Source of the DNA: Owenia fusiformis
Taxonomy: Eukaryota > Annelida > Polychaeta > Sabellida > Oweniidae
Direction of reading: 5' to 3'
DNA: 64,000 bases
Assembly: GCA_903813345.2 (NCBI GenBank)
Contig: CAIIXF020000006.1
Location: 22,637,936 to 22,701,935, forward strand
Of this stretch, positions 33,735 to 62,843 are shown in pieces. Each line of letters starts with the position of its first letter. Position 1 is the first letter of the stretch. The translations under genes and the position numbers were made by a program. The notes under the pieces were generated by a model, which saw only the letters and a program-made list of their open reading frames with translations, ran no database searches and was not told the DNA's origin.

Positions 33735-36700
33735 TTAATTAATCCATGCATAAGAAGGGAAAAATGGGGCGGCTTCCCATCGTCTGCATTCATTCTCTTT
33801 ATACCTTGGCCTAGTTTCAACTTTGTTTGATATAATTGCAGTTCCAGTTTCCCAATCGGGCCAGTTTGTGATCTTTCCTGTTGTAACAAACTCTTTAATT
33901 CCACTTCGCAAAATTTCAGTCAATTTATTCTCATTTTCCCCGGTAGTATCCATATATTTGGAAAAATCCCCGAAAAATGACATTGAGTCAAAACCATGGA
34001 ATGCATATTCAGCTGCATACTTGAATTTTAATGTGATTGGTTTGGATGGTACAGCTGTAAGGACATAGCGATACACAGGAGACGTGAATGCATCTGCTGC
34101 CTTCTGGGTAAGGACATCAGTTGCACAAATTACTCTAGCATCAGATACTAAACTTGTAAACTGAAACTGTGGTGTCACATTGTGTGGATAACTGAAAAAT
34201 AAAGAGTAAATCAAAAGTTACATTCAATACTCTCCATACAAAGTTAACTACATGTCTTGAAACTAATACTTCTGCCTTGTGCAAAAATAGCTTCCTTGAA
34301 TTGGTACGATCCTAAAATTAATCCGAATAAATTTCGATGCATAACATATTGTGGGATTAATCTGGGAATTTATCCTATCATCAATGAATTCAAACTATCT
34401 TCAAGGATAATTCTTACCCTACTCTTAATTTTTAACTGTACTGCGACCGTAGCTTCCCAAAATCAAGATAATGAATATGCAATATAAAATATAGGGATAA
34501 GCAGTACGATGTACATTTTCCATATCGATTTTGTAAAGCTACAGGTGACGTTTGCCCACCATAGAGCAACAGTGAACTTACCAAGAGTTCCTAAAATGCT
34601 GAAAGGTAAATTCTCACAACATCTCAATCTTAACCAGATTTCATAAATTAATGAGAATAAAAGAAACTTACTCTTGTAACACCTGATCAGCAAGGGTGTT
34701 GTCAAATGAGTCCATGGCATCACGGACAACTTGATCATATTTCTCCCAGGTCCAAGTGGGAAGATCCATTTCTGTGGGGGCAAAATCGATCTCTTGAGCT
34801 GTGTTTCCTAAAGTAAGCAATAAGATTTCAAAATGTGATAGGCTCCCTCCCTCCACTCCTTATTATAAGGCTTGTGACACTAAAATGACATTTGTGTAAA
34901 TAACTGATTGATAACTGAATAACTCATATTTTGAAAATTTCAACAGATCCCTTTTCAACTGATAGATTGACATGCAAAAAGACCCTGCTAAATAAAACAT
35001 ATTGGTGCACTAATGCCCCTCTGGGTAATGACCTACCTATTACAAGAGGAACATCATTCCCAGCACCCTGTGCCCAAACATCAAATGGTGCTGAGGGTAT
35101 CACTTCACCTGGAAATATAGAACCATACACAAATATAAAACGAGGCATAAATATACAAAAAGTCACCACCTGCCATTTATACAGATGCTGACACGACTGA
35201 GAACAAGGCACAGACGTGAACAATATCGTACCTAAAACACAGCAGTGTGACAGTGAAGAATTTAGGACGGAAAATCCAAAATGGCCACCTTAAAATTTAC
35301 CCAGAATGCCCAAAAACTAATCAGTTTTTAACTTTGATACGTAGAATCATCCCTGAAAATTTCAGATGAATCCATCAAATGGTTTGGCTGGAAACCTGTA
35401 GACAAGTCTTGAAAGTGAAGATTTTAGGACGGAAAATCCAAAATGGCCACCTTAAAATTAACCCAGAATGCCCAAAAACTAATCAGTTGTTAACTTTGAT
35501 ATGTAGAAACATCCCTGTAAATTTCAAAAAATGAATCCGTCAAATGGTTTGGCTGGAAAACTGTAGACAAGTCTTGAAAGTGAAGATTTTAGGACGGAAA
35601 ATCCAAAATGGCCACCTTAAATTTTACCCAGAATGCCCAAAAACTAATCAGTTGTTAACTTTGATATGTAGAAACATCACTGTAAATTTCAAAAAATGAA
35701 TCCGTCAAATGGTTTGGCTGGAAAACTGTAGACAAGTCTTGAAAGTGAGGATTTTAGGACGGAAAATCCAAAATGGCCACCTTAAAATTAACCCAGAATG
35801 CCCAAAAACTAATCAGTTCTTAACTTTGATACGTAGAAACATCCCTGAAAATTTCAGATGAATTCGTCAAATGGTTTGGCTGGAAACCTGTAGACAAGTC
35901 TTGAAAGTGAAGATTTTAGGACGGAAAATCCAAAATGGCCACCTTAAAATTTACCCAGAATGCCCAAAAACTAATCAGTTGTTAACTTTGATATGTAGAA
36001 ACATCCCTGTAAATTTCAAATGAATCCGTCAATTGGTTTGGCTGGAAACCTGTAGACAAGTCTTGAAAGTGAAGATTTTAGGACGGAAAATCCAAAATGA
36101 CCACCTTAAATTTTACCCAGAATGCCAAAAAACTAATCAGTTCTTAACTTTGATACGTAGAAACATCCCTGAAAATTTCAGATGAATCCGTCAAATGGTT
36201 TGGCTGGAAACCTGTAGACAAGTCTTGAAAGTGAAGATTTTAGGACGGAAAATCCAAAATGGCCACCTTAAAATTTACCCAGAATGCCCAAAAACTAATC
36301 AGTTGTTAACTTTGATACGTAGAAACATTCCTGAAAATTTCAGATGAATCCGTCAAATGGTTTGGCTGGAAACCTGTAGACAAGGCTTGAAAGTGAAGAT
36401 TTTAGGACGGAAAATCCAAAATGGCCACCTTAAAATTTACCAAGAATGCCCAAAAATTAATCAGTTCTTAACTTTGATACGTAGAAACATTCCTGAAAAT
36501 TTCAGATGAATCTGTCAAATGGTTTGGCTGGAAACCTGTAGACAAGCTGAAAAGTGAGACGCCGCCCGCCCGCCCGCCACCCGCCTGTCATGCTGACGAC
36601 AATATCGTACCTTAATTAGGTACGATTAAAAGACGCCAAACACCATCCACAAAAAGTTGGAGACTATAACAATATGTCATCACTTGTGGTGACATAACAA

Positions 36701-39700
36701 TACTTTATTTAGTTGCCAAAGTACATAGACATATTCTTACCCTGATGTCAAGAGGGTATTTTTAAGCATGTATTAACACCTTTTGGAACAAAACCTTTAT
36801 ATTTACTTCAGACATTTAACCGAATCCCATGGGGAAGCAACAATAAATACTATTGCATGAAAAAAATCTGATTTGGGAAAAAGGCATCCAATATGCGTAA
36901 CTCTGTTTATCCTATGCCAAGTAGAGTTTTAGGGAGATAAGTTGGTAAGATATATCCCGTATCCTGATTTTGAGGTTTATGCCCCTGAAAACTCTACTTG
37001 GAATAGGATAAAGCAGTTATGTATGGTCGGTTTGAATATGGGGTTCATCCCTCGTGAGATATGCACATCTACCTTCGGTCCCTATGGTCCCTCAAGTAGA
37101 TATGCATATCACCCTCTGGATAAACCCCATATCCAAAACCTCCCAGTACATAACCCTTATATATTTAAGTAAGTCAATTATTACCATCAATTATTGCTAC
37201 GGGTCCAGAGAACTGCCCATTCTTGGGGATATCAGTAAGATCAGCCATCCTCCATGCAGGGTACACATCCCAAGGTATGGCATCCACAATTTCACGTGGG
37301 GTTAGATTATATAAGCATTCTAACCGATTTGCAGCCTGGTCACACTTTGTATTTCTAAAAACCATGGTCACTAACATTATTCGTTATTCATACTTGTAAT
37401 ATGATATGTGATGTCACAATGACTAGAACAATTGATTTACTGGTCTATAATTGAGTATGTATGACCTCTAAGTGTCATCAGTGCAAATAATTGTTTTTCC
37501 GGTTTGTTTCATATTAAAACTGTAACAAACACCTTAATTCTACGATTTAAGGCAAATATATGGCCTTAGATTTTATTCTGGCCCTGCCAGATGAAAAAAG
37601 AATAAATCCTCTGTCATATACTGCGCCATAAATCAGAATCTAGGTCTTTATTCCTTAAATTAGACTACCGGTATTATAAAAAGCAGCATCAAAACTAACT
37701 AACTTGACTAAATAACAACCTCATCACAGTTTACGAACCTCGTGTTAAACATTTGATTAAAAAAAAGAAATTGTGATTTGCTGTATTGATTATGAATGAA
37801 ATAATGTACAAATATATAATATGAAATAAATTACAAAAAAAAAATCAAAACTTCTTGAACACCAGAGTATTTTTCTCACTTGCTTGCTTGTATTTCTGAT
37901 CAACAACAAGATGACTAAAACAATAAATCCATAAGAATCTACAGACAGAATTTTGTATATGATGTACAGAATCTACTAATTTGACGAACAGAATTCACTA
38001 CTTGAAATACAACATTTATTCTTCAAGTAAAAAATGTACTAATAAATGTACAGCATTTTCTACTTGATGTACATGAACTACTTACGCAAGGAAAACCTTA
38101 TTGTCTTCTTGGGCATCGGCCAAAGTTGCTTCATACTTGACTGAACTACTCATCAGCCAAGCTCTACTGAATAAGCCCTTAGCCTCAGGACTGGCAAGCA
38201 GTGCATATATGGATGTCCCTCCAGAGCTTACTCCAAACACCGTAACCTATAGAATACATGAGATTTAATGATTAGGCTAGAGTGAGTTTATCCAAATTTT
38301 GTCTGAAGGAAATGGGCGGGAAAATAATGTTCAAGTTGGGGACTAGAGGGGTTGGTTGACACAGGCAACATTCAAGATATCCTGGTTGTAGCCCTACTGC
38401 CTTACCTGAAGATTTTCAACATCATTTTAACTTAATACAGTGCATAATTTCCTTATCTTTCAGATATAGGGACCAATGGTTCAACAAAGAATTATGACGA
38501 AATGTCAAAAGGTAGAACAAGAAGTTTTGACTGAATGCTTGCGATAAACAGACATGCAAAATGTCACAACCTGGCATTTGTTACCCAAGTTACAAACGCC
38601 AAACACCAACCGCCACCACAAAAAGTAGGAGACCATTGCACTAATAGTTTCAAAAGAGGATGTTGTTTCGCATCTGGTTTTGTGTCACTATCGTTGATTA
38701 ACAGTGGCCTCTTTTAGAGATTAGGTCGTCACGGCAACAGATGCTGGCGCCACCTATTTACTTTAATAATACATGGAAGATATTTTCTCTCACCTGAGAA
38801 GGGTCACCTCCAAACTGTTCAATGTTATCCTGAACCCACGTTAGAGCAGCAATCTGATCCATGAAGCCGTAATTTCCCGATGATTTGCTTGTGGAATTCT
38901 GGGATAGCTCCTCTAGGGCCATGAAGCCGAATGCATTGACACGATAGTTGAAACTGACAAAGACAACATCCATAGATTTGGTGACTTCCGGAGTTGGCAT
39001 ATCACCTTTTGTATTTCCACTGCCATACTGTAGGTATCCACCATGGATCCACACCTGTAGAAAATGCCAATATAATAGCAACATCAAGTACAAAAAATAT
39101 TGGCTATGGGGGTGTTTTTTTTGGCCCACCCTGTATATTTGTTTTTGTTCTGCGAAAAATTTGAAGTACTGCAAATGTACGTCGAAATGAAGTGGAAGTA
39201 AAATATTATGTTATCAGGATTTGACAAAAATAATGCAGGATAAATATAACTAAGAACTTACCATAACAGGTCGTTTTCTAGTTTTATTAAAACTTGGAGT
39301 CCAAACATTAAGATATAAGCAGTCTTCAGCTCCAAATATTTTTTCTGATCCAAATTCATACTGGAAGCATTTACTTTTGAACTGTTTAGCATTATATGTG
39401 TTGTTCTCAGTCCCACATTTAATAGATTCAGTCTTAGGGCGCCTCCATCGATTGTTTCCAGTGGGGGGTTCGGCATAAGGTATACCCTGTAAGAGTAAGT
39501 ATCAAATTCAACATGTGCAACAAAGAGTGGGATTTTCAAGGTGTGACATACCTAGTTTTTTTGCTTTACCATTCAGGGTGAGACAGTTTTCAAGGTGTGA
39601 CATAGTTTTTTTTCACCATTCAAGGTGTGACATACAGTGTTTTTTGTTTTACCATTCAATGTGTGACATAAGGTGTTTTTGGTTCATCACTCAGGGTTTG

Positions 39701-42343
39701 ACATGCTGAGTGCTTATTTTCAACTACAATAGAAAAACTTAAGTCTTCATTCAAGTTTGTTCCTTATACTCGTAATCTTAGTATTGCACACTGAGCAAAT
39801 GAAATATATATGCATTCTTGTAACATTGTTTTATGCATGTTTAAAAGCTATCCTTAATCTAATTTCCTCATTTGCTTTTAAAATAATACGACTTATACCA
39901 AAATATGTCTTTTGAGACTCCTACCTTAAAAACAAAGACCTGGTCTTCAATGACACCCTGCAGAGAACCGCACGATACTTGAGCAATAGCCCTTGGGTCA
40001 TCATAGGAAAATGTACTATTTGGTGACTTAGAAGGAGTCTTCTTGCTTGGATCGGGATGTACAGCAGCGACAATTATTATCACGATGATAACCACCAAAA
40101 TTAGAATCGTGAAAAGAGCTATCAGAGCCCAACGTACAAATGGGCGCTTCAAAAAAGGAACTTGTTTTGAGTCTGGTTTTGTACCTCCATTTTCGGTAGT
40201 GGAGACATCTTTTGGAGATTCATTCACCTTGGCAACAGATGCTGTCGCTGCAGGTGCTGCCACCTATTTTAAGAAAACAGTTGTTCTTAATCATATCAGA
40301 CTCAAACTCTTATTTTCAGTTAATCGTTTGTTCAAAGTTACAAACTGTACCACATCAATTATTTAACAAAATTATGAAAAGGTTATCATTCAAGATATCA
40401 TTATTTTCTAATAAAGAAAATATCTTAAGGATCCAGTAAATGCTGTTTTGTTAATGTTACCTCTTCATCATCTTTGAGTAACTTTTCAGTCTCCTCGTCA
40501 TCTGTTTTGTTGCCCTCTGTCTCATCTTTATTAGTATCTTTAGCATCACCTGCAGCAGCTGGATCAATGGCAGTTTCATCCTGGGCTTTAACATCATCCT
40601 CTACTTTAATATCTTCTGCTTTGATATCATCACTCGCCTGAGTTTTTATAACAAAATATTCATCATTTTAAAACTGTAATCAAACAGAGATTGTTTTGCA
40701 GGGTCTATATAAAAATGATTGCCATAATTTAACATATAAGCAATTGGTCATTGCCTAAGAAACAACTCATTTTTCCAAGATCATTGCTAAAGTAAAAGTG
40801 TCTGCTACTGCCATTCAGACAGATGTGAGTTTTGAACCGTGTTGTTTTGCATCAAATTCAGTGTATCTACCATTAACCGTAATGCTGACTGTTAATACCA
40901 TTTCTCTTAACAGACACCGAATGCCAGATACCAACTGCAGTCACAAAAATGGAGACCATAACAATATGTCACCACTTTTGGTGGTGACATAATAACCAGT
41001 TTAGAATAGCATAACCTAGAACCATTTTATGTTTTATAAAAGTCAACACTATTTTACAATTGGCATTAAGATGTTACTAATCTGTCAAACTGAGAGCTGA
41101 CAGCACTCACAAATTGTCTATAAAAAGTCTATAAATGTTTTGAGAAATATGAGAGAACCAGGGATGCATGTAAATTGCACTGTATACATGTAATAAGTAC
41201 AATTTATTAGAGTTACACTTGTTAAAATAAATAAGTTATTACTCAACAAGTAAAACCTGGACCTGCAAAGGAGTTCGCTTCATCATAAAACCAACCTGCT
41301 CCCCTATACACTTTAAATGATTATTCAGTGCATGTACGTGTATACTAACAGCAACAATTGGACTGAATTTCGAATTTGAAGTTTTTTATATCTGAGTTAT
41401 ATTCTATTGAATATAATAACATCTTTTTGTAAAATGATTAAACACTTAAAATCAAACCCTTAAAAGTGCAATATCCAAATATCAAACTTAAATGTTAATT
41501 GTAATCAAATTTTGTTATTGTAAAACCTCTCAACAGAAATGCATGATCACTTTGAAATTTTAAGAGCAGTTTTACGATTGAGCAGCTGAGAGTGATAAGG
41601 CAGACACCTTGAGAGGAAGTCTCATTTAAATCATCTTCAGACTGGTGAAATTTACCAGACAAAATACTTGTCTTGTATCTGAGTGACACCAGGTAGTCAC
41701 TAGAAGTTCAATATCATAGAATGCAACTGTTGATTCAACATTACTACTTTCCGATTTGATAGACTGTCTATATAATTCATTTTAGCAAAACAACCTCTCA
41801 TTTGAATGATGTGCACATCCTTGGCCCAAGAGTAATTCATTGCATTACATTACATGATCTGCTATGAAAGCAGTGAAGGACCGATCTTGAAGGATGTGAT
41901 GTGCATATTATACATTTCTTCCTTTTGAAAAAAAAAATTGATAGTGTCACTGTGTCGTCTTAAAGTCCCCATGTATTTCATCAAAATGTAATATACGAGT
42001 AAGAAACTTTTTTGAATAATATTTTTTTTCAAATAATAAAAAGGCCAACAGCTTTGTTTTATTTGTAAGTTAGCATATTTAATATCTGTGATATAAGTGA
42101 TGACAAAAAATATTTGGATAATTTAACAATCTTTTCAAACATTTTACATGCTCTTAGTTGTAAAAACAAGATGCTAAAATGAGGTTGAATAAAGTGGCTT
42201 AAATAAACTGAGGTTCAAATGCATGATTCTTAAAAAATTTTAATTCTAAAAGGCATTATATTTACCTTCTCCGTTTCTTTTTGGACTTCATCTCCAGGCT
42301 CTACAATCTTCAGTTCCACATCAGCAGCTTTTGTCTCCGACAT
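33735..42343 (-). CDS. Type II membrane carboxylesterase / cholinesterase-like protein (10 exons, complete)
   Basis: Coding exons in order: 42343-42266, 40637-40461, 40263-39925, 39486-39262, 39054-38794, 38246-38086, 37354-37185, 35108-35037, 34807-34672, 34191-33735. The sum is 2076 nt, 691 aa, all GT-AG with consistent phases. Residues 1-125 are acidic and disordered (KAEDIKVEDDVKAQ style). LKRPFVRW precedes one membrane helix (about 130-153), predicting cytosolic N-terminus and extracellular catalytic domain. Alpha/beta-hydrolase landmarks: GIPYAEPPTG, EDCLYLNVW, WIHGG (277-279), NYRVNAFGF, and the nucleophile elbow G-V-S367-S-G. The acid E500 is in GNTAQE and H605 is in AFHGFD, so the Ser-Glu-His triad appears complete. 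The residue before the serine is V, where most relatives have E. It probably hydrolyses esters at the cell surface; a true acetylcholinesterase role cannot be assigned. Confidence 0.94.
35143..36698 (-). mobile_element. Hairpin-ended dispersed element, expanded copy 6, carrying a 162-bp satellite
   Basis: The left end (AAAAAGTCACCACCTGCCAT) and right end (GACGCCAAACACCATCCACA, then AATATGTCATCACTTGTGGTGACAT) are those of the short copies. They are separated by 1.4 kb of satellite instead of about 60 bp. A repeated CAATATCGTACCT word borders the array on both sides. It lies in the intron between the 35108-35037 and 37354-37185 exons of the carboxylesterase. Confidence 0.8.
35252..36548. repeat. 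Satellite array, eight monomers of 162-165 bp
   Basis: The word AGGACGGAAAATCC recurs at 35264, 35426, 35591, 35756, 35918, 36080, 36242 and 36404, giving steps of 162, 165, 165, 162, 162, 162, 162. Each monomer contains AAAATGGCCACCTT, ACTAATCAGTT and GGTTTGGCTGGAAA. Divergence between monomers is low. A CCGCCCGCC stretch follows at 36562-36585. Confidence 0.95.
38550..38640 (-). mobile_element. Hairpin-ended dispersed element, copy 7 (truncated)
   Basis: ATGCAAAATGTCACAACCTG start, GCCAAACACCAACCGCC core, stops at AAAGTAGGAGACC. Carboxylesterase intron. Confidence 0.7.
39534..39705. repeat. Tandem repeat, about 45-bp unit, four copies
   Basis: Repeats of TTCAAGGTGTGACATA followed by a T-rich spacer and ACCATTCA, in the carboxylesterase intron just before the 39486-39262 exon in transcript order. 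Confidence 0.75.
40900..40992 (-). mobile_element. Hairpin-ended dispersed element, copy 8 (partial)
   Basis: CCAGATACCAACTGCAGTCA core and ATATGTCACCACTTTTGGTGGTGACAT end, with an intact terminal hairpin; the other end is eroded. First intron of the carboxylesterase. Confidence 0.75.
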
Positions 42344-42716
42344 TATTCTGCAACAAAAATATTAAACCTTCATGCAATAGTAATACTTGGTCTAATAGTA
42401 TGAAGAAAGTCAGTATGTTCTTTAATCAGTAAATGTATTTATTTTTTATTGAATCACGGAGGTAGCTATTCAAATACTTGAATCAATGAAGTACAAGTAA
42501 AATACATGAATCATCAGGAAATTCAAAGGGCTCTTTTACGAGTGGGTTGTTTAGCGTTTACTTGAGCCCCAGTAAAAAATGACATAGTGGTGTCATGTGA
42601 CACAATGACATGACTATTTAGATGTTTTATATCAATGGAACATGAATAATCTTTGCAAAGGTGAAAATGAAACTTATGACTCAAATAACAAAGTAAGTTC
42701 TGAGGTAACTTTTTAA

Positions 42717-43262
42717 ACAGGGTGGTCTAAAAAACTGGAAACATTTCACCATTTTCCTCATATCTTTATCATTTTAAAAAATAAGTTCCTGATATTTTAC
42801 ACATTTGTACGTCATTCAATTTCCTACCACGCTACCATATTTCATGACCATCTGATTGATAGTCACCATGCTACAACAGTTTAAAGAACATGCCCCAGTG
42901 GTCACATTTTTGCACATGCACATGGCGTCCAGGATGTCCCTACCTGTGGGGATATGGCAGAGTGTATGAGAATGACCTCAGGACAATTGCAAACCTCAAA
43001 AGTGAGATCATCTGTATCATTCAGGCCATACCTGCTGAGGAATGCATTTGGATCATTGACAACTGTGTAGGTGTACTGTAACTACAGCGCGATGATGGCC
43101 AAATCTGAAGCATGTTATTCAAAGTGCTGTAAAATTGTGACTATCTGATGGTCACGAAACATTGCAGGGTTGTAGGAAATTGAATGATGTACAAATGTGT
43201 GAAATAATGGGGAGTAATTTCTTAAAATGACAAAGATAGGAAATTTTTTTTGACCACCCTGT
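42717..43262 (+). mobile_element. Tc1/mariner-derived element with transposase C-terminal relic, copy 2
   Basis: Inverted ends CAGGGTGGTCTAAAAAAC and TTTTTTGACCACCCTG. The + strand at 42890-43081 is open and encodes CPYLWGYGRVYENDLRTI followed by ANLKSEI and a helix with IPAEEC, the well-known last domain of mariner-family transposases. The DDD catalytic core is absent, so this is an internal deletion derivative. It is closely related to 29581-30160. Confidence 0.85.
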
Positions 43263-43366
43263 ACCTCTGTCTGAATGCATGTTTTTGCATAGTTGAAAGC
43301 TGTGGATTTAACATGATGGCTATGATTTAACTCTTCAAGTTTCGTATTCTTTAAATGTGATAGTGT

Positions 43367-43539
43367 ACAAATAGTGACTGCCATTGAGGGAAATAGTGCA
43401 AAATAATTTCCTCAAGGGAATATCCTGTCCACTGACACGTTCCCGAGGCTGCAGGCCGAGGGAACAAGTCAGTAGACAGGATATTCCTGAGAGGAAAATT
43501 TTTACACTATTTCCCGAAAATGTGGCAGTCACTATTTGT
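43367..43539. mobile_element. 173-bp palindromic MITE
   Basis: Ends ACAAATAGTGACTGCC and GGCAGTCACTATTTGT, with inner mirrors AATATCCTGTCCACTGAC / GTCAGTAGACAGGATATT and GTTCCC / GGGAAC. Most of the element pairs with itself. Confidence 0.8.
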
Positions 43540-44384
43540 TTTATTATATACCTGATAAGTACTCTGTAAACAAAAACAAAATGAGAAGTCTTCATTTCAA
43601 TATCAAATGTTCACAGGTTCTTATTGGCATTTAAAGGCATTTTACCTTTCAACTCCTATAATCTCAGATTTGGGGGAAGATAAAATGTACTATTGACTGG
43701 TCACATGACCTAACTGGTGATTAGTACAATTCATCTTCCCTGAAAGCAGGGATTTAGGACTTTCCAGGGAATAAGTTCATCTATTCCATGTCATGTGACC
43801 ATGAATAAGCCAATGAGCATCTAGAATACATTTGAGGTATATAATAACTTAAACTATATCTGCAGTTATTATTAAGAAGTACTGCTTAATTCCTCATACT
43901 TAAACAATTTACATATTGTGTATAAAATCTGTCACTTTACAATATATCTTGATGGTTCCAGGTTATATCTAATTTGCAAACCATCCTTGTAACTTGCTTT
44001 CCCGGCTAACAGGTACCATCCATGGAACCTTCATACACCTCTATTTTGTTTCATGTTTCAACTACATTGCCTTCCCCCCCCTTTACCAGTAGTAGTGGCT
44101 GGAGTTTATACATAAATTCATTCCTTTACTTAGCAATAATATGCACCAAATTGATTGCCAAAGTTTTATAAAAAATATAAGCGACAATTTCAATAAATAA
44201 GAACAGGAATACATAGAAATTGAAAAGGTATCAATGAAGTTGTATAACTTATATACAAAGCTATAATTCCATGGGCCAGGGATGAGTTAACACATGTAAA
44301 AATCAGACAAACTGATCAATATGGCTCATACTTTCATTCACAAAATCACTCATTAGTTAGATAATTTTTCATATAATGAGTTAT

Positions 44385-47664: not shown

Positions 47665-47774
47665 TGCATATGGATGGTGGATGGTGTTTGGCATTCGGCG
47701 ATTGGTGTTCAGTGGTTGGTGTTCAGCATCTGTAAGAAATGGCAGGTTGTGACATTTTCATGTTAATTCCTTGT
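47665..47774 (+). mobile_element. Hairpin-ended dispersed element, copy 9 (forward, left end lost)
   Basis: GGATGGTGTTTGGCATTCGG core, TCTGTAAGAAATGGCAGG, and a GTGACATTTTCATGTTAATT end. Confidence 0.75.
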
Positions 47775-48054: not shown

Positions 48055-48184
48055 GTTGTGGATATTGCTTGGTGGTTTATGCTTGGCATCCAGTGTTCGG
48101 CGGTTGGTGTTCAACATTCAACAATCAACATCTCTGTAATAAATGGCAGTTTATACATTTTGCATGTTAATGTTAATGCCTTGT
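48055..48184 (+). mobile_element. Hairpin-ended dispersed element, copy 10 (forward)
   Basis: GCTTGGTGGTTTATGCTTGG core, GTAATAAATGGCAG, and a CATTTTGCATGTTAATG end; the left hairpin is eroded. Confidence 0.7.
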
Positions 48185-51078: not shown

Positions 51079-51231
51079 ATGTCACCATCACAATTGTTGA
51101 CATATTGTTATAGTCTCCAATTATTTGTAGATGGTAATCAGTGTCTGGCAGTAGGCAGGCGGTGTTCAGTGGGTGAAGTTCAGTATCTGTAACAAATGGC
51201 AGGTGGTGATATTTTGCATGTTAATGCCTTG
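51079..51231 (+). mobile_element. Hairpin-ended dispersed element, copy 11 (forward)
   Basis: ATGTCACCATCACAATTGTT start, GACATATTGTTATAGTCTCC block, TCTGTAACAAATGGCAGGTG and a TTTTGCATGTTAATGCCTTG end. Follows the last visible INTS12 exon. Confidence 0.85.
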
Positions 51232-51392
51232 CTGTTATCTGCTAGACCACCCACCCACCCTAGACTTGGAAAAGGGAAAAATGTTACAAAAATCTACAGT
51301 TTTTAGATAATAAAGCTTAAAGCTTTAGTATAAACATAAAGTGCTACTGAACATTCACTCGCTCTGTTTTGCAAGTTGTGGGCTTTTTCATG

Positions 51393-51490
51393 TCATCACT
51401 GAGAAGTGGTGACATATTGTAATAAGAAACCATTTTATGACTGGCATTTGGAGCATTTCAGCGTCAGTAACAAATTGTAAGACTTTTGTA
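51393..51490 (+). mobile_element. Hairpin-ended dispersed element, copy 12 (partial)
   Basis: ATGTCATCACTGAGAAGTGG hairpin, GACATATTGTAATAAG, and a CAGTAACAAATTGTAAG remnant. Confidence 0.65.
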
Positions 51491-51769: not shown

Positions 51770-54700
51770 CTAGGTAGTGATTTCAACTTTTATTAACTCA
51801 GTAACATTTTTGTTTTTTTGTTTGCATCGCTTTTTGTAGAGTCTTGCAGACCCATATGTTACACAAGACAGGGATGATATCAATATTGAAAATGTCATAA
51901 TAACATAAGGGAAACACATGACTTGGACTTTATCAATTAGGTATCCAGTCAGTAAAGGTACTGAGACGGCCCCTAGACATTGTGTTGAAATTTGAATACT
52001 TGGTATGAGCCCTGTAGTCACAGACATTATGTTTTCTTTGTACCATAGCAACATAGGTACAAATAGCCCAGCTTGCCCTATTCCAGATATTAACATTGTT
52101 ATCCAGATCACAATAAAATGTTTTTGAACAAAAATCGCAAAAATGATACCTGAAGATAAAATCATGGTTACGTTCATTACAATAAGCTGTGTAACGCTGA
52201 TGAATTTAGTTGCAAATATTGGAATGGATAAAAGACTAGACACAGGAAACGCAATCAAAAAAGCTGATCGTATTAGTGAACCTTTTGGTTTTGTCCATTG
52301 AAGACATTGTACAACAAATGGTATTAAAAGTCCTCCGATTGTGGTTTGCAAGCTTCCAAATGAAAAGAATATCAATCCAAGTAACATGAGAAACTTGATT
52401 TTGTAATATCGAGGCAGTTTATCATTAGTTTGATTGGTAGCCTCATTTCCATCCTCTGCAATGTTTACTGGTGTATAATTATTTTTCCTGTTAAATCTTG
52501 CTAATATACAATAAGATAATCCCATGACTCCAATATATACTCCAATGATCATATATAGAAACTGGATGTAAGATTTTGTCATGATAGTTGCATATGTTGG
52601 ACAATTTGCTGTGCCATTGAAAGTGTTTGCATTGTTAGATTCATTCATCATTAGATTTCCATTGCTGAGCTTTGTACTATTTTTCAGAGGCATTTCATCA
52701 AAAAACATACTTTCTGTATTGTTATGGGCACTGTATATAGATGTTGATAAAAATGGAATTGCAATTGCTTGTGTAATGAATGCCCCAACACTGTAGGAGA
52801 GATGGAGGCCTTGAAGGTATGGTCCGGACTGTTGACCCCATGTCAATATCATCAACACATTATGCACTGGAAATATAATATCAATAAAAAGTAAGGGAAA
52901 ATAAAATGAGAAACAGGTCATGTCTCATTTTGTTAGTGTGTGCAAGACAACTTATTATGAAATGGGCCTCAACAATGCGGCCAAATTTTCTGGAGCAAGG
53001 CCCAAAAAAGAAACCTCCCTCAGAAAGCTTTTACAGGCCTGTAATTACTTAACAACACAAACCTGTATCTGTTGTACCATTTAATATTCCAGTTGTCCCT
53101 ATTAGCAACATCACCAAGGCAAAGTTATGTAACCATGGCATCACAATCACTAACACAGAGGCAACCATCATGTATGCTCCAACAAGGAGTGTCTTATTCA
53201 CTGACTTCATATTTGTAAGACATCCCGCTGCTATACCACCTAATCCAATCCCTGCATAGCGTGTTGTGAATGCAAATGACATTTTAGCTGTGTCAACACC
53301 TAACTGGTCTCTGAGGTCTAGAAATGTTGTAGGAAGCAATCCCTCTGTCATACCCTGAAATTAATTTTATTATTTCTTACATGTACAATGTATTTGTAAA
53401 GTAACATACAGTGTGCTTATTTCTTATAACTATGATACCAAGAGATATTTTATACTTTATATCTCCAAAACTGAACTTTGCGTGACTCTACATCAATGTT
53501 GACATTTTAATTTAATTTTTTTAACGTTTTTTAATTTTGACATTTTTATACCATGACACCGAGTGATGTACGTTTACATCTTCAAAACTGAAACTTTGAG
53601 TGACTCCATGAATCAATGTTGACATTTATTTTATTTATTAACATTTTTTAAATTAATTTTGACACTCTATCACTCTGAATTTCGTCTGTCCCACATCATT
53701 TGAGACTGAATGGTCTATCTTGCATAAATACTTACTAGCATTTACACATATATCCTTGATGTCAAGAGAATTAGAAAGCAGCCAGTCCTTTAACATGATC
53801 TGTATTGACTACAATATAAATTTAATGTTTATGGTTCTGTGATTGTTATTGTAATAATGGTTCCTGAATGGTGGGGAGGAGTAAGGGGTATAATACTAAT
53901 TCTTATCTACATGTTGGATCATTGTTTTGGATATTTAGCATTTGTTTTTCTTGTAACTGGTTAATCTTTTAGATCTGTTTCATTTTCTTGGTCTGTTAAG
54001 TAAAAAAATAGTCTTTTCCCTTTGGTACTTGTACTATTGATAGCAAAAATCTAAAATAAATCTGTGTTATAACCAAGTCTGCAGTATGAATGAAATATTT
54101 TTTGGTTGTGGGATTGAGATAATGGTTTCCTAAAGATAAGGGAGAGGATGTTTGACATTTTTCACCGAAAGTTAGATCATCTTTTGTCTACTTGGGTAAT
54201 TACAGATTTTTTTCTTATCTTATGACTGAGTTTTGGGCTATATGGGGTTTGTTTTTCTTGACTGGTATGCACTTAGAGTTTGCTTTTTCTTGCTAAGTTC
54301 CATTACAACTTTTGGTCCTTTCCCTTTGGCACTAGTGCTTATATATTGATTACAATGTCAATTTTTTGCATACAGTGTCTTGTAATACATTTAGGTCATA
54401 CCCATTTACACACTTGGACTTACCCAGTGCTACATAATCTAAATAGCTCTTAACACAATTACAGACAATACCTCAAACCTCTTAACATTTCTAATTTTGT
54501 CTAAAACATTGGTGAGGAGTATCAAAAGGTTTACTTTACTACAAAATAAAGTACAATGTATCATAATTCCTTAAACTTATCACCTCCAGAAATCCTGATT
54601 TTTAAGTGCTTATACCAGTTTTTAGTTCTTACCCTGATTTAAATGAACAGAATTGTAGAAAGAAACTCCTGATTTTTGAATAATACCCTCAGTGTAAGAA

Positions 54701-55118
54701 ACTCCCAATTCCTTTTTAAGAAATACTTGAGATTGCATACTTCATTTTTGTACATAGTTTTTCTTTGTAAATAATGTCTTGATGTAATTATTTTTGATAT
54801 TTATGGTATGTATGTTTATATACTGCACAAAACGCATTTAAAAACTCAAAAACACTGATATGTTGGAGAGATTGACATGAAATAGAGTCAATAAAAGATA
54901 TAAATCGGATATATTATAGATTTCTTAATGGCATGTTTCCTCGTAACTATGAGAAAACCAGTACTTACCAATCCTGTATATGAAGCAAACAGTAGTATAG
55001 TTGTGATCCATTTTAGAGGTTGTCTTTCATTTATTTTTTTTTGCATTTGGTTTTTCTTCATTTTCACACCTGTTGAAATGAGTTGTGGTTCCACTGATGC
55101 AATAGGTAAAGCAGACAC
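51770..55118 (-). CDS. MFSD4-like (SLC60) major facilitator transporter, copy A (3 exons, complete)
   Basis: Exons 55118-54969, 53354-53063 and 52866-51770 join to 1539 nt, 512 aa. TM1 spans the first junction (WITTILLFASYTGLGMTEG). Exon 2 carries the DLRDQLGVD loop, TM2-4 and a GTTDTVHN motif completed across the second junction. Exon 3 has LTWGQQSGPYLQGLHLSYSV, the signature shared with MFSD4A/B (sodium-dependent glucose transporter 1 type). It also has a loop with several N-glycosylation sequons, a cytosolic LPRYYKIKF loop and TM7-12. It is predicted to be a 12-helix plasma-membrane solute carrier, possibly for sugars; substrate not determinable. Tandem paralogue of the gene at 57994. Confidence 0.9.
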
Positions 55119-57993
55119 ATATACAGCAAAACCTGTATATATTTATATATGAACACCACTCTTATCTGAACAACTCAAGCAACAGAGATATGTAGAATGA
55201 ATAGCATAACACAAAAACAACAAGCAATTACATTTTTTTATTTCCTCTTTTCAAGAAATTCCAGATTTGCCAGCAGAATTGTTGATAATTAGTTGTAAAT
55301 TAGTTGGTAATAAGTTGGTAATTAGTTTTATTTTTCAATTGGGATGATTTCAACTTTTCATTCAATGCACTTGATATTTTCAAATTTTGATGGGGAAAGT
55401 ATCGATTGCGCATCAATTGATAAAATTCAGGTATTATTTGATTTTCCTAAATTCTATGAACAGGATCCGTGGCATGACTCAGTTTGAAGCATTTACATTT
55501 TTTTACTTCCTCTTTTCTAGAAATGCCACATATAATTTCCATTTTTCATTCAGTTTAGCTGACATTTTCAAATTCTAATGTAGATATAGAGAAGCCGTCA
55601 ATTAGTCATTCCTTTTGTCCGTACATTTGGATTCTGTCCAAAATTTGGGAAAAACATTGAAACTCAGTCATCGTTTTCTCATATCACTAGAAAGTGTTGA
55701 TGAATTCATTTGTATCAAACAATGGTGCTATTTTCAAATTGTTGATATGTCATACAATTGAACTATAAATATTTGTTGTTTTATGTGTTCCCATTCATAA
55801 AACATATTGATCTCAAAAGTTACCTGTCTTCCTTTATGGAATAACTTTCAAATGTTAATTATGGTGTATCATATTGCTTATTTGGTAAGTATATGCAAAA
55901 ATCAGGAAACGTGACTCTTAGTCAAAAAGTTATTTATTTACTATGTGTCTTTATTTACTGTATGTATCACAGACCATTCACGTGTACAGTGACCATTTGT
56001 GCCAGCAACCTTGACTTGTGCAGTATTTGTAATTGGCTGAATAGTCATAATAAAGACATGCAGTAAAATCTGTTTAATGCCAACACTACTGGCATCAGCT
56101 ATATTGTAAGTATTCATATCAGAGGTTTGTGACCTTTATACAAGATATGACACAGAATCTGTAGTTGAGATACCACAACATGGTGCCATAGGAAGCACGA
56201 TCAAGAACCCCCTGGTCCTTTGTATTGTTGAGTCCCAAATCCCCCTCTTTATGTGCTAATTTTGCAATTGTAATGAATTATTTTCATGGAAATTGATTGA
56301 ATCTGAAATTCAAATATACCGGAGCAATCCATATGTTATCTGATTGGTCGTCAACTTTGTTTATCATTATGGTCATGTGAACAAGGGAACTCCATATATG
56401 GCAGATCTGGAAATTCAAAAAAATAGCTCTAAATATGATTGGCTGCCTTGTTCAAGCAACAAGCCGACAGTCCACCAGTATGCATGTCACTTTACGGGCA
56501 TTTTTCAAAATGGCCACCATTTTCTGGTATGCTTTTTACATTTTTTTACTATAACTCAAAAAGAAGTAGAGCGATTTTGTTCATATTTTATATGTGAATA
56601 CTAAAAGCATGGCACACTGTCTAAAGACACTTTGGATAGTAGGCGGCCATTTTAAAAAATGGCCTTCACTTTTACATTTTTTACTATTACTCGAAAAGTA
56701 TTGGAGCGTTTTTGTTCATATTTTATATGTGAATACTTTAAGCGTATATTGTCTAATAAAATGTTGGTGAGTAGTCAGCTATTTTGAAAAATGGCCATTT
56801 TTATGTGTGTTATTTTACATTTTTTATTATAACTCAAAAAGTAATAGATCGATTTTGTTCATGTTTGATATGTGAATATTCGTAAGGATTGCATACTCTC
56901 TTATGACATTTTGGTAGTAGGCTGCCAGTTTAAAAATGGCCACCATTTACATGTATGTGTGTGCGATTTTTAAAAATTTTATATGTGGCTACTTAAAAGC
57001 ATATTACTTCTTCTGATGACAACTTGGCTAGTGAGCATTGAAAATGGTGGCCTTTCTTATATGTGTTATTTTATGATATCTGCTATATATTTTGTTTGTA
57101 AAAATACCAGCCATTTCTGTTCGATGGGATTCGCTATGCTTTGGCATTGCCATTGTTCTGGTTCACATTGTTTAGAAAATTTTATTTGTAGAAATTCTTT
57201 TAGATTATCCATGTCCAGTTCTGTATTCTTGGCTGTGGTCTGATGTTCCAATTCCTTTAGAAAATCATTCATATTTATTTTCTGGAATCTTTGATAACTA
57301 TACTCTTTCCCTTTTTTAAATCATCAAACAGAGCAATTGTACAGTAATTGTACAGCAATTTACAGTAATTATTCGAATGGTACACAAATGCACCACAATG
57401 CAAACAGTGATTTGGACAACAGCGCGCAGATATAATAAGGCCTGCTCAGCCAGAATGTTAAAGCTATATCCTGTCCTCTGATGAAAAAATATAACTCTTA
57501 TGTTATACCTCAAAAACTTCAAAGTATGGGATGGAGTTATCTCATCTGTTTGTTACTTTGTCTGGGTGACAACTCAAATACCTGCTGACAGATTGGGTCC
57601 ATATTTTAGAGGCTGGTGCCTAATGGGGATAGGAATATGGCCACCATTGTTTGAGAAAAATATAATCTTCAAATACTAGTGAACATATTTAGTTCAATTT
57701 TCATATGCTGATGCCTTTGGGGCAATTGAGGTCTATTAGGAAATAAATTTTCTAAGATGGCCACTGAATTCAAAATGGCCGCCATTTTGTAACTATATTA
57801 TTAAACAAATGTTTTATTAATTTCTCCAACATTTTAATATTTTTACTATAAAATACTATATTTTATATTTATATTTCATGTACATACATTTTCTTTCATT
57901 TATATGTAATCATGCTGCTAATATCATGTTCCTTAGCCTGTCAAGTTGTTGAGCATTGGAAAACCATGTTTCTTGAATGTTTCTTTTTTTATT
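55119..57993. other. Spacer between the two transporter genes
   Basis: No gene recognised. AT-rich and partly repetitive (tandem repeat at 56500-57050); it should contain the promoter of copy A. Words such as AAAATGGCCGCCATTTT recur near 57770. Confidence 0.55.
56500..57050. repeat. Degenerate tandem repeat, about 140-bp unit, four copies
   Basis: TTGTTCATATTTTATATGTG recurs at about 56577, 56713, 56855 (diverged) and 56975 (partial). Each copy is followed about 70-80 bp later by AAAATGGCC. Confidence 0.8.
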
Positions 57994-60900
57994 TCACATC
58001 ATTGGTTTCATTTCAACCTCTGTTGCTATCTCAGTCTGCTTATGTCTCTTTTTGTAAAGTCTTACAGACACATAGGTGAAACAAGACAAGGATGTCATCA
58101 ATGTCGTTAATGTTACAATAACATAAGGGAAACACATGGCTTGGACTTTGTCAATAAGATATCCAGCCAATAAAGGTACTGAGATGGCCCCTAAACAGTG
58201 TGATGAAATTTGAATACTTGGTATGAGCCCTGTAGTCATAGGCATAACGTTTTCTCGGTACCATAGCATTGCAGCTACAAGTAACGTAGCTTGCCCTATG
58301 CCTATTACTAACATGGTAATCCATACTACAATAAAATGATATTGGACAAAAATGACAAAAATAATACTTGAGATAAATATCATGGAAATGTTTATAAGAA
58401 TAAGCTGTGTAACTTGTATGAATTGAGTTGCAAATATTGGGATAGTTACAAGACGTGATATTGCAAATGTTATCCAGAAAGCTGATACTATCAAAGTACC
58501 TTGCTGTTTAGTCCAATCAAGACCTTGTACAACAAATGGTATAAGAAGTCCTCCTAGTAATGCTTGCAAACTACCATATGCAAAGAATATCATTCCTAAT
58601 AAAATGAGAAACTTAATTTTATAATATCGAGGTAATGTATCTTGTGATTCATCGGTATAATTTTCTTCATCTTGCTCTCGTACTTCGTTTGCAGGTTGAT
58701 AACCTCTTTGCTTGTTAAATCTCACTAGTATGCAAAAACATACTCCCAATATTCCAACATAAAGTCCTATGATCAAATATGCAAATACAATCCTTGATTT
58801 TGTCATTGTAGTCACCATTGTTGTAACATTGTCATTTACAGTATGATTCGATTCACTCACTGTTGGAACACTGGTGTCGAGTATTGTATAATTTCTAAGA
58901 GTTTCTGTTGGATCTGCAAATACATCTGCACCATTGTTATCAGCACTTTGTATTTGTTTTGATATGAATGGCATTGCAATTCCCGGAGCAATAAAAGCCC
59001 CAACAGTGAAAGAGAAATGGAGGCCTTGGAGGTACGGTCCGGACTGTTGCCCCCACGTCAGTATCACTAACACATTATGAACTGGAAACACATAAATGCT
59101 GTTGTTAATACATGTATAGGTTCTACTATGTAATTGTTGGCTATATACAGGGTGGGCCAAATAATTTAATTTTAATTTTTGATACAAAATCATAATTTGC
59201 ATACCAAATGAAACTTGAAGTTGTTATCTAGCCATGGATCATGAATTATACACTTTAACTTGAATAAAATATGTCACCAGCGTCGAACTTAAACATGTGG
59301 TGTGCCATGAGAAATAAGCATAATTTGCAAAATGTTCCTGAACTGATACGGCCTGATGACAACCAAGTTAATAGGTCTGATGCAAACCCCAGTGAGTATA
59401 GGGTATGGGAATGTCTGCAGGAGATTGTATCAAGGCACCCAATCTAAAAAATTGCTCAACTAGAGCTGGCAATTAGGACAGGTTGAAAAAAACTTAGCTA
59501 ACATTTCATTGATACTGCTATATCAGCAAGGCGACTAAAACTAAAATCGATCATCAAATAGGGTGGCGGACCAATTGAACTCCTCTTTTAGATCAAATAT
59601 AATCCACGTTGAAGGACTTGTTACATTATATTATTGCTAAGAACCCCTGGCACTATATAACTGCAAAATTTGGGGTATGTAGGTTGGAAAATAAAAAAGT
59701 TGTAGTGTCTTGAAAAAAAGTGGCGTTTTTTTGGCCCACCCTGTATAGTCAGAACTTGACTGTTTAAATGATATCATGACTATAAATTGAATAAATCTGA
59801 ATATAGGAGTCTATTGTTATGTCACCACCAAAAGTGGTGACATATTGTTATGGTCTCCGTTTTTTTGCGACGGCGGTTGGTGTCCGGCGGTTGGCGGTTG
59901 GCGTCCGGCGGTTGGCGTCCGGCGTCTGAAACAATTTCTTACAACTTCCTATAACTTAACAAATACTGTTTAGACTTACTTCAATTTTTTTCTAAATCAT
60001 CTACATGTTCTCAGAAGTTCAAATCTGACTTTAGATTTGACATTTGACCTTCAATGACCTTCTCAAGGTCAAAAAGGTCTTTTTTCAACTTGCTTCACAT
60101 TGACTAAATTTTTTTTCAAAATCATCTACATGTTCTCAGGAATTCAAATCTGACTTTAGATTTGACATTTGACCTTCAAATCTGACTTGAGATTTGACAT
60201 TTGACCTTCAATGACCTTCTCAAGGTCAAAAAAGGTCAAAAAGGTCTGTTTTCAACTTGCTTCAAATTGACTAAATTTTTTTTCAAAATCATCTACGTGT
60301 TCTCAGAAATTCAAATCTGACTTAAGATTTGACTTACGATTTGACATTTGACCTTCAATGACCTTCTCAAGGTCAAAAAAGGTCAAAAAGGTCTGTTTTC
60401 AACTTGCTTCAAATTGACTAAAATTTTTTTTCAAAATCATCTACGTGTTCTCAGAAATTCAAATCTGACTTTAGATTTGACTTTAGATTTGACATTTGAC
60501 CTTCAATGACCTTCTCAAAGTCAAAATAGGTCAAAAAGGTCTTTTTTCAACTTGCTTCAAATTGACTTAATTTTTTTTTCAAAATCATCTACATGTTCTC
60601 AGAAATTCAAATCTGACTTTAGATTTGACATTTGACCTTCAATGACCTTCTCAAGGTCAAAAAAGGTCAAAAAGGTCTGTTTTCAACTTGCTTCAAATTG
60701 ACTAAAAAATTTTTTCAAAATCATCTACGTGTTCTCAGAAATTCAAATCTGACTTAAGATTTGACTTAAAATTTGACATTTGACCTTCAATGACCTTCTC
60801 AAGGTCAAAAAAAGTCAAAAAGGTCTGTTTACAACTTGCTTCAAATTGACTAAAAAAAATTTTCAAAATCATCTACGTGTTCTCAGAAATTCAAATCTGA

Positions 60901-62843
60901 CTTTAGATTTGACTTAAGATTTGACATTTGACCTTCAATGACCTTCTCAAAGTCAAAAAAGGTCAAAAAGGTCTTTTTTCAACTTGCTTCAAATTGACTA
61001 AATTTCTTTTTCAAAATCATCTACATGTTCTCAGAAATTCAAATCTGACTTTAGATTTGACATTTGACCTTCAATGACCTTCTCAATGTCAAAAAAGGTC
61101 AAAAAGGTATTTTTTCATCTTGCTTCAAATTGACTAAATTTTTTTTCAAAATCATCTACATGTTCTCAGAAGTTCAAATATGACTTTAGATTTGACTTTA
61201 GATTTGACATTTGACCTTCAATGACCTTCTCAATGTCAAAAAAGGTCAAAAAGGTCTTTTTTCAACTTGCTTCAAATTGACTAATTTGTTTTTTTCAAAA
61301 TCATCTATATGTTCTCAGAAATTCAAATCTGACTTTAGATTTGACATTTGACCTTTAATGACCTTCTCAGGGTCAAAAAGGTCTGTTTTCAACTTGCTTC
61401 AAATTGACTAAAAAAAATTTTCAAAATCATCTACGTGTTCTCAGAAATTCAAATCTGACTTTAGATTTGACTTAAGATTTGACATTTGACCTTCAATGAC
61501 CTTCAATGACCTTCTCAAAGTCAAAAAAGGTCAAAAAGGTCTTTTTTCAACTTGCTTCAAATTGACTAAATTTTTTTTTCAAAATCATCTACATGTTCTC
61601 AGAAATTCAAATCTGACTTTAGATTTGACATTTGACCTTTAATGACCTTCTCAAGGTCAAAAAAGGTCAAAAAGGTCTGTTTTCAACTTGCTTCAAATTG
61701 ACCACATTTTTTTTTCAAAATCATCTACATCTTTTCAGAAGTTCAAATTTGACTTTACAAGTTCTCAGAAATTCAAATCTGACTTAAGTTGAACTCATAA
61801 TATTGTGAGCAACTAGGTGGTGACATTTTGTCATGTTAATGCCTTGTTTTGATAGTATAGAATACTAAGTATATATATAGGCTAAAAAACTTCACACTCA
61901 TATTTGTCATATTCCATCAAATTTTGCCTCAGATTCATTGTTAGAGAGCTAAGCTCTCTAGATAAAAGTTGTTTTTTTTGGAATACATATACGCAAACTT
62001 GAAGTTGTACAAGTCAAGTATAGCACTCGGGGATCGCTAAAAACGAAGATAGGGTGCTTTCATCCTTCAAATCACAACAAAATATTTGGTAAGTATGTAG
62101 TTCATGAGTTCCGGTTTCAAAACAACTTAGAAATTAATTCTGCCATTGCTGGGATATTCACAAATCAATTTTTCTAATGAAATGTACTTTCCTGATTTCT
62201 TTTAGAAACCTTCCTCCCCAGTGGTATTTACGTCATTTAAAAATTAAAGTTGCAGTATAAGTTTGGCTGAAAACTTATATTGAAAGCTCTCTCTTATTAT
62301 GATAACAACCATAAACATTAACTGGTAACTGAGCAGCATTGAGCGGTCAGTAGTTAAAAATATATTATGAAATATATATAATATATATATATGTATTATA
62401 TGACCAATCAGAATATTTCACTTGAGGATCTAACAATACTAATAATTATGCAAGTAATGTAAAGTCTCGAAGGCATTTGTATATGACACTTTTCTGGAAA
62501 TTTGATATACTTTACCTCTAACTTTTGATGGATAAATATAACGACACAAACCTGTATCTGCTGAACCAGTTGATATTCCAGAAAGTCCAATCAGCAACAT
62601 CACCAGGGCAACATGCTGTAACCATGGTGTCACAATAAATAACACAGAGCTTACAATCAGGTATATCCCAAGAAGAAGTGTTTTATTTAATGTTTTGATA
62701 TTTGTAAGATACCCTGCTGACATACTCCCCAATGCTACCCCAGCAAAACGTGTTGTGAATGTGAATGACATAGTCGCTGTATCTACGTCTAGCTGGTCTC
62801 TAAGGTCTAGAAATGTCACAGCGATTAGTCCATCAGCCATACC
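57994..62843 (-). CDS. MFSD4-like (SLC60) major facilitator transporter, copy B (last two exons; first exon outside window)
   Basis: Exons 62843-62552 and 59081-57994 give 1380 nt (459 aa plus stop) in the same phases and with the same lengths or nearly so (292 nt and 1088 vs 1097 nt) as copy A. They read GMADGLIAVTFLDLRDQLDV, then LTWGQQSGPYLQGLHFSFTV, LPRYYKIKFLILLGM and TGLIPSIQISSHCLGAISVP. The exon matching copy A's first exon, with the start codon and TM1, was not found in 62844-64000, so it must lie beyond the window edge. The large loop and C-terminal tail differ most between the copies. The 3.5-kb intron is almost entirely mobile or satellite DNA. Same predicted role as copy A. Confidence 0.9.
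59148..59743 (+). mobile_element. mariner-family element with transposase relic, in copy B intron
   Basis: Ends CAGGGTGGGCC and GGCCCACCCTG with TA on both sides. The + strand retains a degenerate frame at about 59345-59450 (RSDANPSEYRVWECLQEIVS), matching the family's SPDLNPxDYxVWxxLQ block with the last catalytic acid changed. Further on (about 59500-59580) it keeps a stop-containing AISARRLK...GGPIELLF tail. Dead copy. Confidence 0.85.
59819..61855 (+). mobile_element. Hairpin-ended dispersed element, expanded copy 13, carrying an AGGTCA-rich satellite
   Basis: Left end: perfect hairpin GTCACCACCAAAAGTGGTGAC, ATATTGTTATGGTCTCCG and GGCGTCCGGCG repeats. Right end: AGGTGGTGACATTTTGTCAT and GTTAATGCCTTG. 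Between them lie about 1.8 kb of satellite. It is the second expanded member of the family and lies in the intron of transporter copy B. Confidence 0.85.
60003..61775. repeat. Satellite array, about 13 monomers of 128-159 bp, rich in TGACCT/AGGTCA
   Basis: The words TTCAACTTGCTTC and AAAATCATCTACRTGTTCTC recur at steps of roughly 130-160 bp. Length varies through extra copies of GACTTTAGATTT and AAAGGTCAAAAA. Each unit holds TTTGACCTTCAATGACCTTC, then TCAAGGTCA or a variant, then one or two AGGTC words. At least six TCAAGGTCA words are intact. Confidence 0.95.

Follow-up and report, generated by a model that had tools for sequence, protein, structure and literature searches.

A stretch of 64,000 nucleotides from the annelid Owenia fusiformis (contig C6, positions 22637936-22701935 of a 498-Mb genome; hereafter the window) carries a dispersed family of elements, here called family 1. 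Its members are HINEs, Helentrons without coding capacity that are mobilized by a rolling-circle mechanism. The explanation that best fits all our observations, and very probably the right one, is that a coding Rep/PIF1 Helentron was their parent, that HINEs arose from it by deletion of the open reading frame (ORF), and that a 162-bp tandem array seen between family-1 ends in the window came from a second HINE family. Three coding copies, on contigs C6, C10 and C11, share with family 1 both ends and the 148-bp satellite found in Element 2, a complete family-1 HINE of the window. The HINE/Helentron kind of element is already known; the link to a satellite-bearing coding parent was unexpected.

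Family-1 elements run from ATGTCACCACCAAAAGTGGTGACAT.. at the 5′ end to GGTGGTGACATTTTGTCATGTTAATGCCTTG at the 3′ end. Their 5′ terminus is formed by a subterminal inverted repeat (subTIR), ATGTCACCAC, with its complementary inverted repeat GTGGTGACAT; together these make up the terminal hairpin ATGTCACCAC..GTGGTGACAT, a terminal inverted repeat located in the window. Membership of the preceding TT in the element is ambiguous when the 5′ terminus is set. At the other end the 3′ subTIR, GGTGGTGACA, starts 31 bp from the terminus, and palindromes GCATgttaATGC or TGACAtttTGTCA lie behind it or overlap it (partly read by eye). Both termini have the anatomy expected of HINEs, except that in mite HINEs the 3′ subTIR lies farther in, 38-60 bp from the terminus (PMC4067079). 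If joined, the ends of a family-1 element read GCCTTG-ATGTCACC; circles with joined ends have been examined in Fusarium (PMC5148889).

An initial annotation of the window had described a hairpin, conserved blocks and end motifs occurring about 13 times, and these modules are indeed present: besides the hairpin we located two blocks, GTTATRGTCTCC and TGTAACAAATGGC, and the GGTGGTGACATTTTG-CATGTTAATGCCTTG end. Two of them clearly exceed chance, GTGGTGACAT with 30 occurrences in the window at ≤1 mismatch (4.1 expected) and TGTAACAAATGGC with 14 at ≤2 mismatches (3.0 expected), whereas GTTATAGTCTCC alone gives a weaker signal (9 versus 3.6 expected, a count of 9 being reached by 2 of 100 shuffles). 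End profiles seeded from 6 and 9 window copies, where seeds match by construction, produced 19 matches in the window. Grouped by eye, these correspond to 13 copies, some partial or weak, in agreement with the earlier estimate. The direction of the element had to be reversed: the ORF of the coding partner shows that the hairpin, first taken for the 3′ end, is the 5′ end, and the other conserved block represents the 3′ subterminal repeat, behind which the 3′ palindrome lies. Genome-wide, the exact 5′-end 16-mer GGTGACATATTGTTAT has 3,677 matches (1,832 + 1,845), compared with 1 + 0 for the reversed control.

Element 2 (59819-61846, plus strand, TGTCACCACC ends) consists, in order, of the 5′ hairpin (59819-59843), an array, the 3′ subTIR GGTGGTGACA (61816-61825) and the 3′ palindrome up to the terminus GCCTTG|T. 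Tandem Repeats Finder places the array, with units of about 148/136 bp, at 60183-61757; with a diverged first unit included (repeat family D3) it begins at 59985. In 30 of 30 family-1 loci the 148-bp satellite lies behind the 5′ end, and in none does the 162-bp satellite (E≤1e-10). These loci are the best of 40 scored among 1,888 candidates obtained with a 5′-end query, and the sample leans to array-bearing copies because the query included the stretch adjoining the array. Element 2 is a genuine satellite-carrying family-1 HINE, which supports the earlier suggestion that the family is a carrier of satellite DNA.

The same architecture is known elsewhere. Cg_HINE of the Pacific oyster likewise has a 5′ subTIR with a complementary inverted repeat, a microsatellite-like stretch, a 3′ subTIR and a palindrome, contains a central array of mostly 140-180-bp units, and inserts at TT with no target duplication (PMC7492417). 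The pearl elements of bivalves (CvA, CvE and CvG; Gaffney et al. 2003), which we liken to family 1 by description, have HINE-type ends and arrays of ~160-bp units (PMC7492417, PMC11136912). Helentrons and HINEs/DINE-1 also share with family 1 the subTIRs, the 3′ palindrome and a poly-T target, and HINEs are regarded there as deletion derivatives (PMC4067079).

Coding partners and the origin of the 148-bp satellite

Searching the genome with the Helitron Rep family yielded 58 matches, for 9 of which up to 6 kb of upstream DNA was examined. A first look at eight Helentron loci (L031-L038, ~1.5 kb on each side of the Rep match) revealed scattered one-mismatch motifs and no end pair. Nor was a family-1 5′ end in the direction of the ORF found in the first upstream stretch of nine Helentron loci; L047 had a weak one (26 bits) on the opposite strand. 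The true ends of the C6, C10 and C11 elements lie beyond ~1.5 kb from the Rep match. In longer upstream DNA, the C6 Helentron shows the family-1 5′ end at its own terminus, and another, on C1, has a separate short family-1 copy well ahead of its own, different end. C10 and C11 were then chosen for a Rep score equal to that of C6. All three elements begin with the family-1 5′ end (56.1 bits each), followed by the satellite, the ORF and the family-1 3′ end, and they sit between three different flanks. Their satellite units are mostly 88-97% identical to the window unit. Multi-unit arrays resembling a window satellite were present in two of the nine upstream regions, that of C6 (L045; 148-bp units, mostly 90-97%) and that of C1 (L044; 162-bp units, 72-78%, with the window's orientation relative to the 5′ end); a single diverged satellite unit is present in L046.

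The C6 element occupies 5172599-5184714 (12,116 bp); within it, element positions 3373-10899 form an open frame of 2,508 codons. By their end coordinates the C10 and C11 elements measure ~11.6 and ~11.9 kb, and over ~3 kb the upstream parts of their ORFs are 99.5% and 98.9% identical, respectively, to that of C6. A domain scan, carried out on the C6 ORF, detected PF14214 (Helitron_like_N, Rep; 2.3e-25) and PF05970 (PIF1; 8.1e-25), both in P0002, a 1,200-residue part of the frame; C10 and C11 are backed by the PF14214 match of the Rep search. As in Helentrons, Rep and a PIF1-type helicase are encoded in one ORF; some Helentrons have an RPA-like ORF as well. An autonomous Rep/Helicase partner with the same ends, which the initial annotation suggested looking for, was found, and its expected endonuclease appeared in the C6 ORF as sub-threshold matches to PF14529 (5.2e-4) and PF03372 (1.5e-3), both below the Pfam cut-off. 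This region also contains GDFN, which we take to be a motif of such enzymes. Helentrons are described with Rep/PIF1 and a C-terminal apurinic/apyrimidinic endonuclease in one ORF, and the endonuclease match is weak here (PMC4067079).

The C6/C10/C11-type Helentron is probably the parent of the family-1 HINEs. Compared with the C6 element, Element 2 matches its start over the first 1.9 kb (88% over 1,977 bp) and its end over the last 150 bp (70% over 166 bp). A satellite-like piece is also present behind the C10 ORF, and the C10 array matches it with 87% identity over 70 bp. In the coding element the 148-bp satellite thus separates the 5′ end from the ORF, and a diverged satellite piece separates the ORF from the 3′ end. 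These features suggest the following route. Recombination or slippage between the two satellite stretches would remove the ORF, giving a product made of 5′ end, array and 3′ end, such as 59819-61846, and the proteins of the parent may still move this ORF-less HINE in trans.

Junctions between array and 3′ end were studied in the 12 HINEs with both ends, by BLAST against the C10 3′ tail and additionally by eye. The satellite-like piece begins at position 1150 of the 1314 in that tail, and no BLAST match extended farther upstream. In 7 of the 12, read by eye, the array joins the 3′ end inside this piece, in three forms: A1 (L012, L002), A2 (L025, L027) and A3 (L022, L014, L018). We infer that in these seven the ORF was lost repeatedly by way of satellite repeats. 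In the best reading, the family-1 satellite was inherited from the parent and not captured. About evenly plausible, in our estimate, is the broader proposal that the satellite is a built-in component of the coding Helentron on both sides of the ORF, serving as a deletion cassette which repeatedly sheds satellite HINEs, and that at least two families share this layout. The second family concerned would be that of the C1 Helentron (one copy), which has other ends (ATGTCCCCACC..) and a 162-like array before its ORF. Two further 162-like pieces, ~72-74% identical to window units and 69-72% to C1's own array, precede a GGTGGGGACAT repeat; the C1 ends were read by eye, the 3′ terminus being approximate.

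Several points weigh against this derivation. The five other HINEs (Win2, which is the window element, and L009, L017, L020 and L013) show a fourth junction form, B, which keeps a parental stretch resembling a 3′ untranslated region, ATAATATTGTGAGCAACTAG (below BLAST length), with no satellite-like piece beside the 3′ end; a single repeat-to-repeat deletion cannot explain them all. The alignment start at 1150 is by itself no proof that the piece was kept, because HINE arrays resemble it. Two of the three forms inside the piece look like the outcome of short homology rather than of in-register crossing over. The array could also have entered the parent from a HINE. As to the parent itself, its endonuclease match reaches 20.3 bits against a Pfam cut-off of 27.4, with no relative of this region in the PDB at E≤1, and for C10 and C11, examined towards both ends, the open frames (2,576 and 2,424 codons) are those listed in the Rep search. 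Finally, no coding parent with second-family ends was seen at the Helentron loci for which upstream DNA was available (11 of 58 Rep matches).

The reverse order of events, in which HINEs first took up a host satellite and one of them afterwards passed the array to the coding Helentron through recombination, is unlikely in our view. Capture of this kind ('filler') is one of two scenarios weighed for oyster HINEs (PMC7492417), and the near-identity of the three coding copies means that they may trace to one event. It accords poorly, however, with C1, a second coding Helentron that has the same layout with a different satellite, and with the satellite-like piece that follows the ORF, whose divergence suggests that it has been in the parent for a long time. 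In a limited test, moreover, no long free-standing array was found among the places scored (40 per query, from 539 and 469 candidates). Inheritance from the coding parent remains our preferred reading. In the available text of PMC4067079, central repeats are named for HINEs/DINE-1 and not for coding Helentrons; here an array stands before the ORF and a relic behind it. For the oyster, 10 coding Helentrons from Repbase could not be related to HINEs (PMC7492417), in contrast to the three coding partners found here, which share ends and array. A limited literature search (including PMC8268682) turned up no case in which the coding Helentron of a HINE had been reported to contain the HINE's satellite.

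Some further features of the coding loci were recorded. Seven Helentron loci (L039-L041 and L043-L046) contain in-ORF tandem repeats upstream of Rep, with units of 54, 63, 69 or 102 bp, those of L045 encoding a Lys-rich stretch. The N-terminal half of the C6 ORF (P0001, L045:2503-6001) matches DUF6570 (4.9e-13) and, weakly and below cut-off, a herpesvirus tegument N-terminal domain (5.9e-4). Rep matches concentrate on the small contigs C13 (six), C515 (four), C505 and C158, and many of their frames exceed 3,000 codons.

Element 1 and the insertion target

The 162-bp array of the window is part of a HINE from a second family that inserted into a T-rich spot of a short family-1 copy. Tandem Repeats Finder delimits this array at 35248-36557 (minus strand). 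Around it, and inside the family-1 ends, lies a second complete set of ends, running inward from 36626 and from 35204 on the minus strand; profile matches scored 44.6 bits (LE162) and 58.0 bits (RE162), the window copy being one of the profile seeds. The inner part of Element 1 (35204-36626, minus strand) is a complete HINE of this second family (ATCGTACC..GGTACGAT), whose 5′ end reads TT|ATCGTACCTAATAAAGGTACGATATTGTCGTCAG plus a GGGC-rich stretch and whose 3′ end reads CACTGCTGTGTTTTAGGTACGATATTGTTCACGTCTGTGCCTTG|T. The outer part (35141-36695, minus strand) is an interrupted family-1 HINE, with its 5′ portion at 36627-36695 and its 3′ portion at 35141-35203. Without the insert it measures 132 bp (69 + 63), and other short copies have 124-153 bp.

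The same association is found outside the window. Relatives of the 162-bp array sit on many large contigs, and among eight other loci, picked from the genome match list for multi-unit 162-bp arrays, the second-family 3′ end is present in 8/8 and the 5′ end in 7/8 (L057 is truncated). Family-1 ends enclose the array in none of the eight; L062 has one weak family-1 3′ end (17 bits), outside the inner element. Because separate ends border the 162-bp array within the outer pair and recur around it at other loci, we conclude that a second-family HINE landed in a short family-1 copy. At one locus (L063, ~599-680), a second-family 3′ end, TTT and a second-family 5′ end follow each other head to tail.

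The initial annotation had read both arrays as belonging to one HINE family, whose end modules gained two unrelated satellites independently and which acts as a seed or carrier. Both window arrays do sit between family-1 ends, and related end modules with unrelated repeats have been described for group 2 of the oyster Cg_HINE (PMC7492417). Its observation that the arrays lack common sequence is also borne out, no BLAST match being found between the 162-bp and 148-bp arrays at E≤1. The single-family reading nevertheless fails for this window and is very improbable, given the complete ends of the 162-bp array inside the outer ones, their recurrence at the other loci (3′ end in 8/8, 5′ end in 7/8), and the absence of the 162-bp unit from all 30 family-1 loci. 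As to a seed role, no long free-standing array was seen at the places scored (40 of 539 and 40 of 469 candidates). Of the two copies thought to keep both ends around an array, Element 2 is genuine and Element 1 is a nest.

Insertion sites were analyzed in end-pairs and coding copies. Of 19 end-pairs, 17 have a left flank that terminates in TT, and 16 of the 18 with right-flank letters show T as the first base there. In 17/17 elements tested (14 of the 19 end-pairs and the three coding copies) no target duplication was observed beyond 0-4 T-rich bases. The five end-pairs set aside were the nested Element 1, a 2.4-kb pair of doubtful status, a pair whose 5′ end has decayed, L006 and L018; in the last two the right flank is absent or has a length of 3 bases. 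For L002, one diverged paralogous empty site lies in a T-run, within which the exact cut length is not resolvable. Insertion into T-rich sequence and the absence of target duplications, both anticipated earlier, back the Helentron/HINE-type identity together with the anatomy of the elements and the Rep/Helicase partner sharing their ends. A miniature inverted-repeat transposable element mobilized by a DDE transposase, with TGTCACCAC..GTGGTGACA as terminal inverted repeats, would fit the inverted repeats at both ends and the short copies of 124-153 bp, but can practically be dismissed, since conserved 3′ sequence runs ~21 bp past the right repeat, fixed-length target duplication is absent in 17/17, and the partner with the same ends encodes Rep/PIF1.

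Tandem 5′ ends

In 6 of the 30 family-1 loci, at least two 5′ ends follow each other with a spacing of 47-51 bp, and the coding C11 copy also bears tandem 5′ ends. Genome-wide, 172 exact tandem junctions (89 + 83) were counted against 0 for the control, loci with more than two units being counted more than once. Among the 100 junctions listed, 99 join at the T-run after the TCTCC-type block; the exception is C2:30114823. We inspected 22 tandem loci, 16 picked for varied junctions plus the 6 above. Units are identical within the element in 21 of the 22. The repeated unit comprises the terminal 45-53 bp only, with at most four units in the loci examined, and is followed by the rest of the element wherever the 3′ end is present. 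The 3′ junction is of form A1 in five loci, A2 in one, A3 in three and B in five, with one unclassed and seven showing no 3′ end within the DNA examined; the tandem feature is therefore spread over all four forms. Plant tandem Helitrons likewise have several 5′ ends and one 3′ end (Xiong et al. 2016 via PMC12628747), but differ from family 1, where the terminal 45-53 bp are repeated.

The origin we favour involves the T-run at +41 and the T-rich flank of the donor site: slippage or template switching between the two, either ahead of transposition or in the course of it. Some spacers (T7-GTT, T9-ATT) resemble donor flanks. The spacer end is unlike the present flank in L072, L075 and L076, and agrees with it in L004, L018 and two of the three L073 spacers. 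Variable nicking in flanking poly-T has been proposed by Thomas et al. (PMC4067079).

Repeated self-insertion at the T-run 41-48 bp inside the 5′ end, with later mobilization of the segment bounded by the outer 5′ end and the first 3′ end, could also generate such structures, and we consider it possible but doubtful. The T-rich target of family 1, the 172 exact junctions with 99 of the 100 listed at the T-run, and the multiple 5′ ends with one 3′ end of plant Helitrons are all compatible with it. It predicts nested precursors, in which the remainder of the outer 5′ region comes after a 3′ end, and two genome-wide patterns gave 0 matches: GTTAATGCCTTGN{0,14}GCGACGGCGG, which misses GCGACGGCGT copies (7/22 tandem loci), and a looser one. 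This test is weak because chance insertion predicts only ~1 such precursor (an estimate). A 5′ end behind the satellite T-run was likewise not found (0 matches for one common spelling). Self-insertion as the only source of tandem 5′ ends is disfavoured by these two null results, and slippage or template switching remains our favoured mechanism.

With gaps of up to 30 bases allowed, tandem 3′ ends gave 7 matches at three places, two of which resemble locally repeated sequence with a different spacing; the third, C7:27691116, may be a genuine tandem 3′ end. Under the same limit, 3′ ends neighbouring 5′ ends gave 19 matches, two places being local repeats. In the C11 copy (L050, ~1440-1774), ~300 bp reaching from the 5′ end into the array are duplicated, the second copy starting inside the hairpin.

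Other features of the window and wider bearing

The remaining family-1 copies of the window were recognized by end profiles unless stated otherwise. Six are short HINEs. On the minus strand lie 3663-3788, with both ends, 6324-6447, with a decayed 5′ end, and 28221-28339; on the plus strand lie 11285-11408 (124 bp), 14477-14589 and 51079-51231 (153 bp). For 14477-14589 and 28221-28339, the 3′ end was identified by profile and the 5′ end by motif. The others are single ends: a 5′ end at 40941-40990 (minus strand) with the top window score, 58.8 bits, itself a profile seed; a weak partial 5′ end at 51391-51422 (plus strand, 19.9 bits); a partial 3′ end at 38552-38584 (minus strand, 31.7 bits); and 3′ ends at 47717-47773 and, weak, at 48133-48183 (31.2 bits), both on the plus strand.

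The window further contains inverted repeats at 18839-20409 (367-nt arms, 99%) and 20475-20933 (208-nt arms, 99% complementary), and a short array of a 16-bp unit, AAGTGGAACACCTTCC, at 31241-31334; sequence akin to this array occurs at 27011-27178. On the minus strand, 51770-52921 and 57994-59202 are two long ORFs related to each other (82% identical over 300 nt), with hydrophobic products that appear transporter-like by eye.

Shared ends with unrelated repeats have been described in the oyster (PMC7492417); here such an arrangement is a nest of two families. Common outer ends around unrelated repeats can thus reflect a two-family nest, which should be excluded before repeat replacement is invoked. 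The oyster study did not decide between a captured and an intrinsic origin of HINE satellites (PMC7492417). In Owenia fusiformis, HINEs can be tied directly to a coding Helentron, and in one family the evidence speaks for an intrinsic satellite. If the deletion-cassette proposal is true, dispersed satellites in this lineage would have been shed by Helentrons rather than captured.

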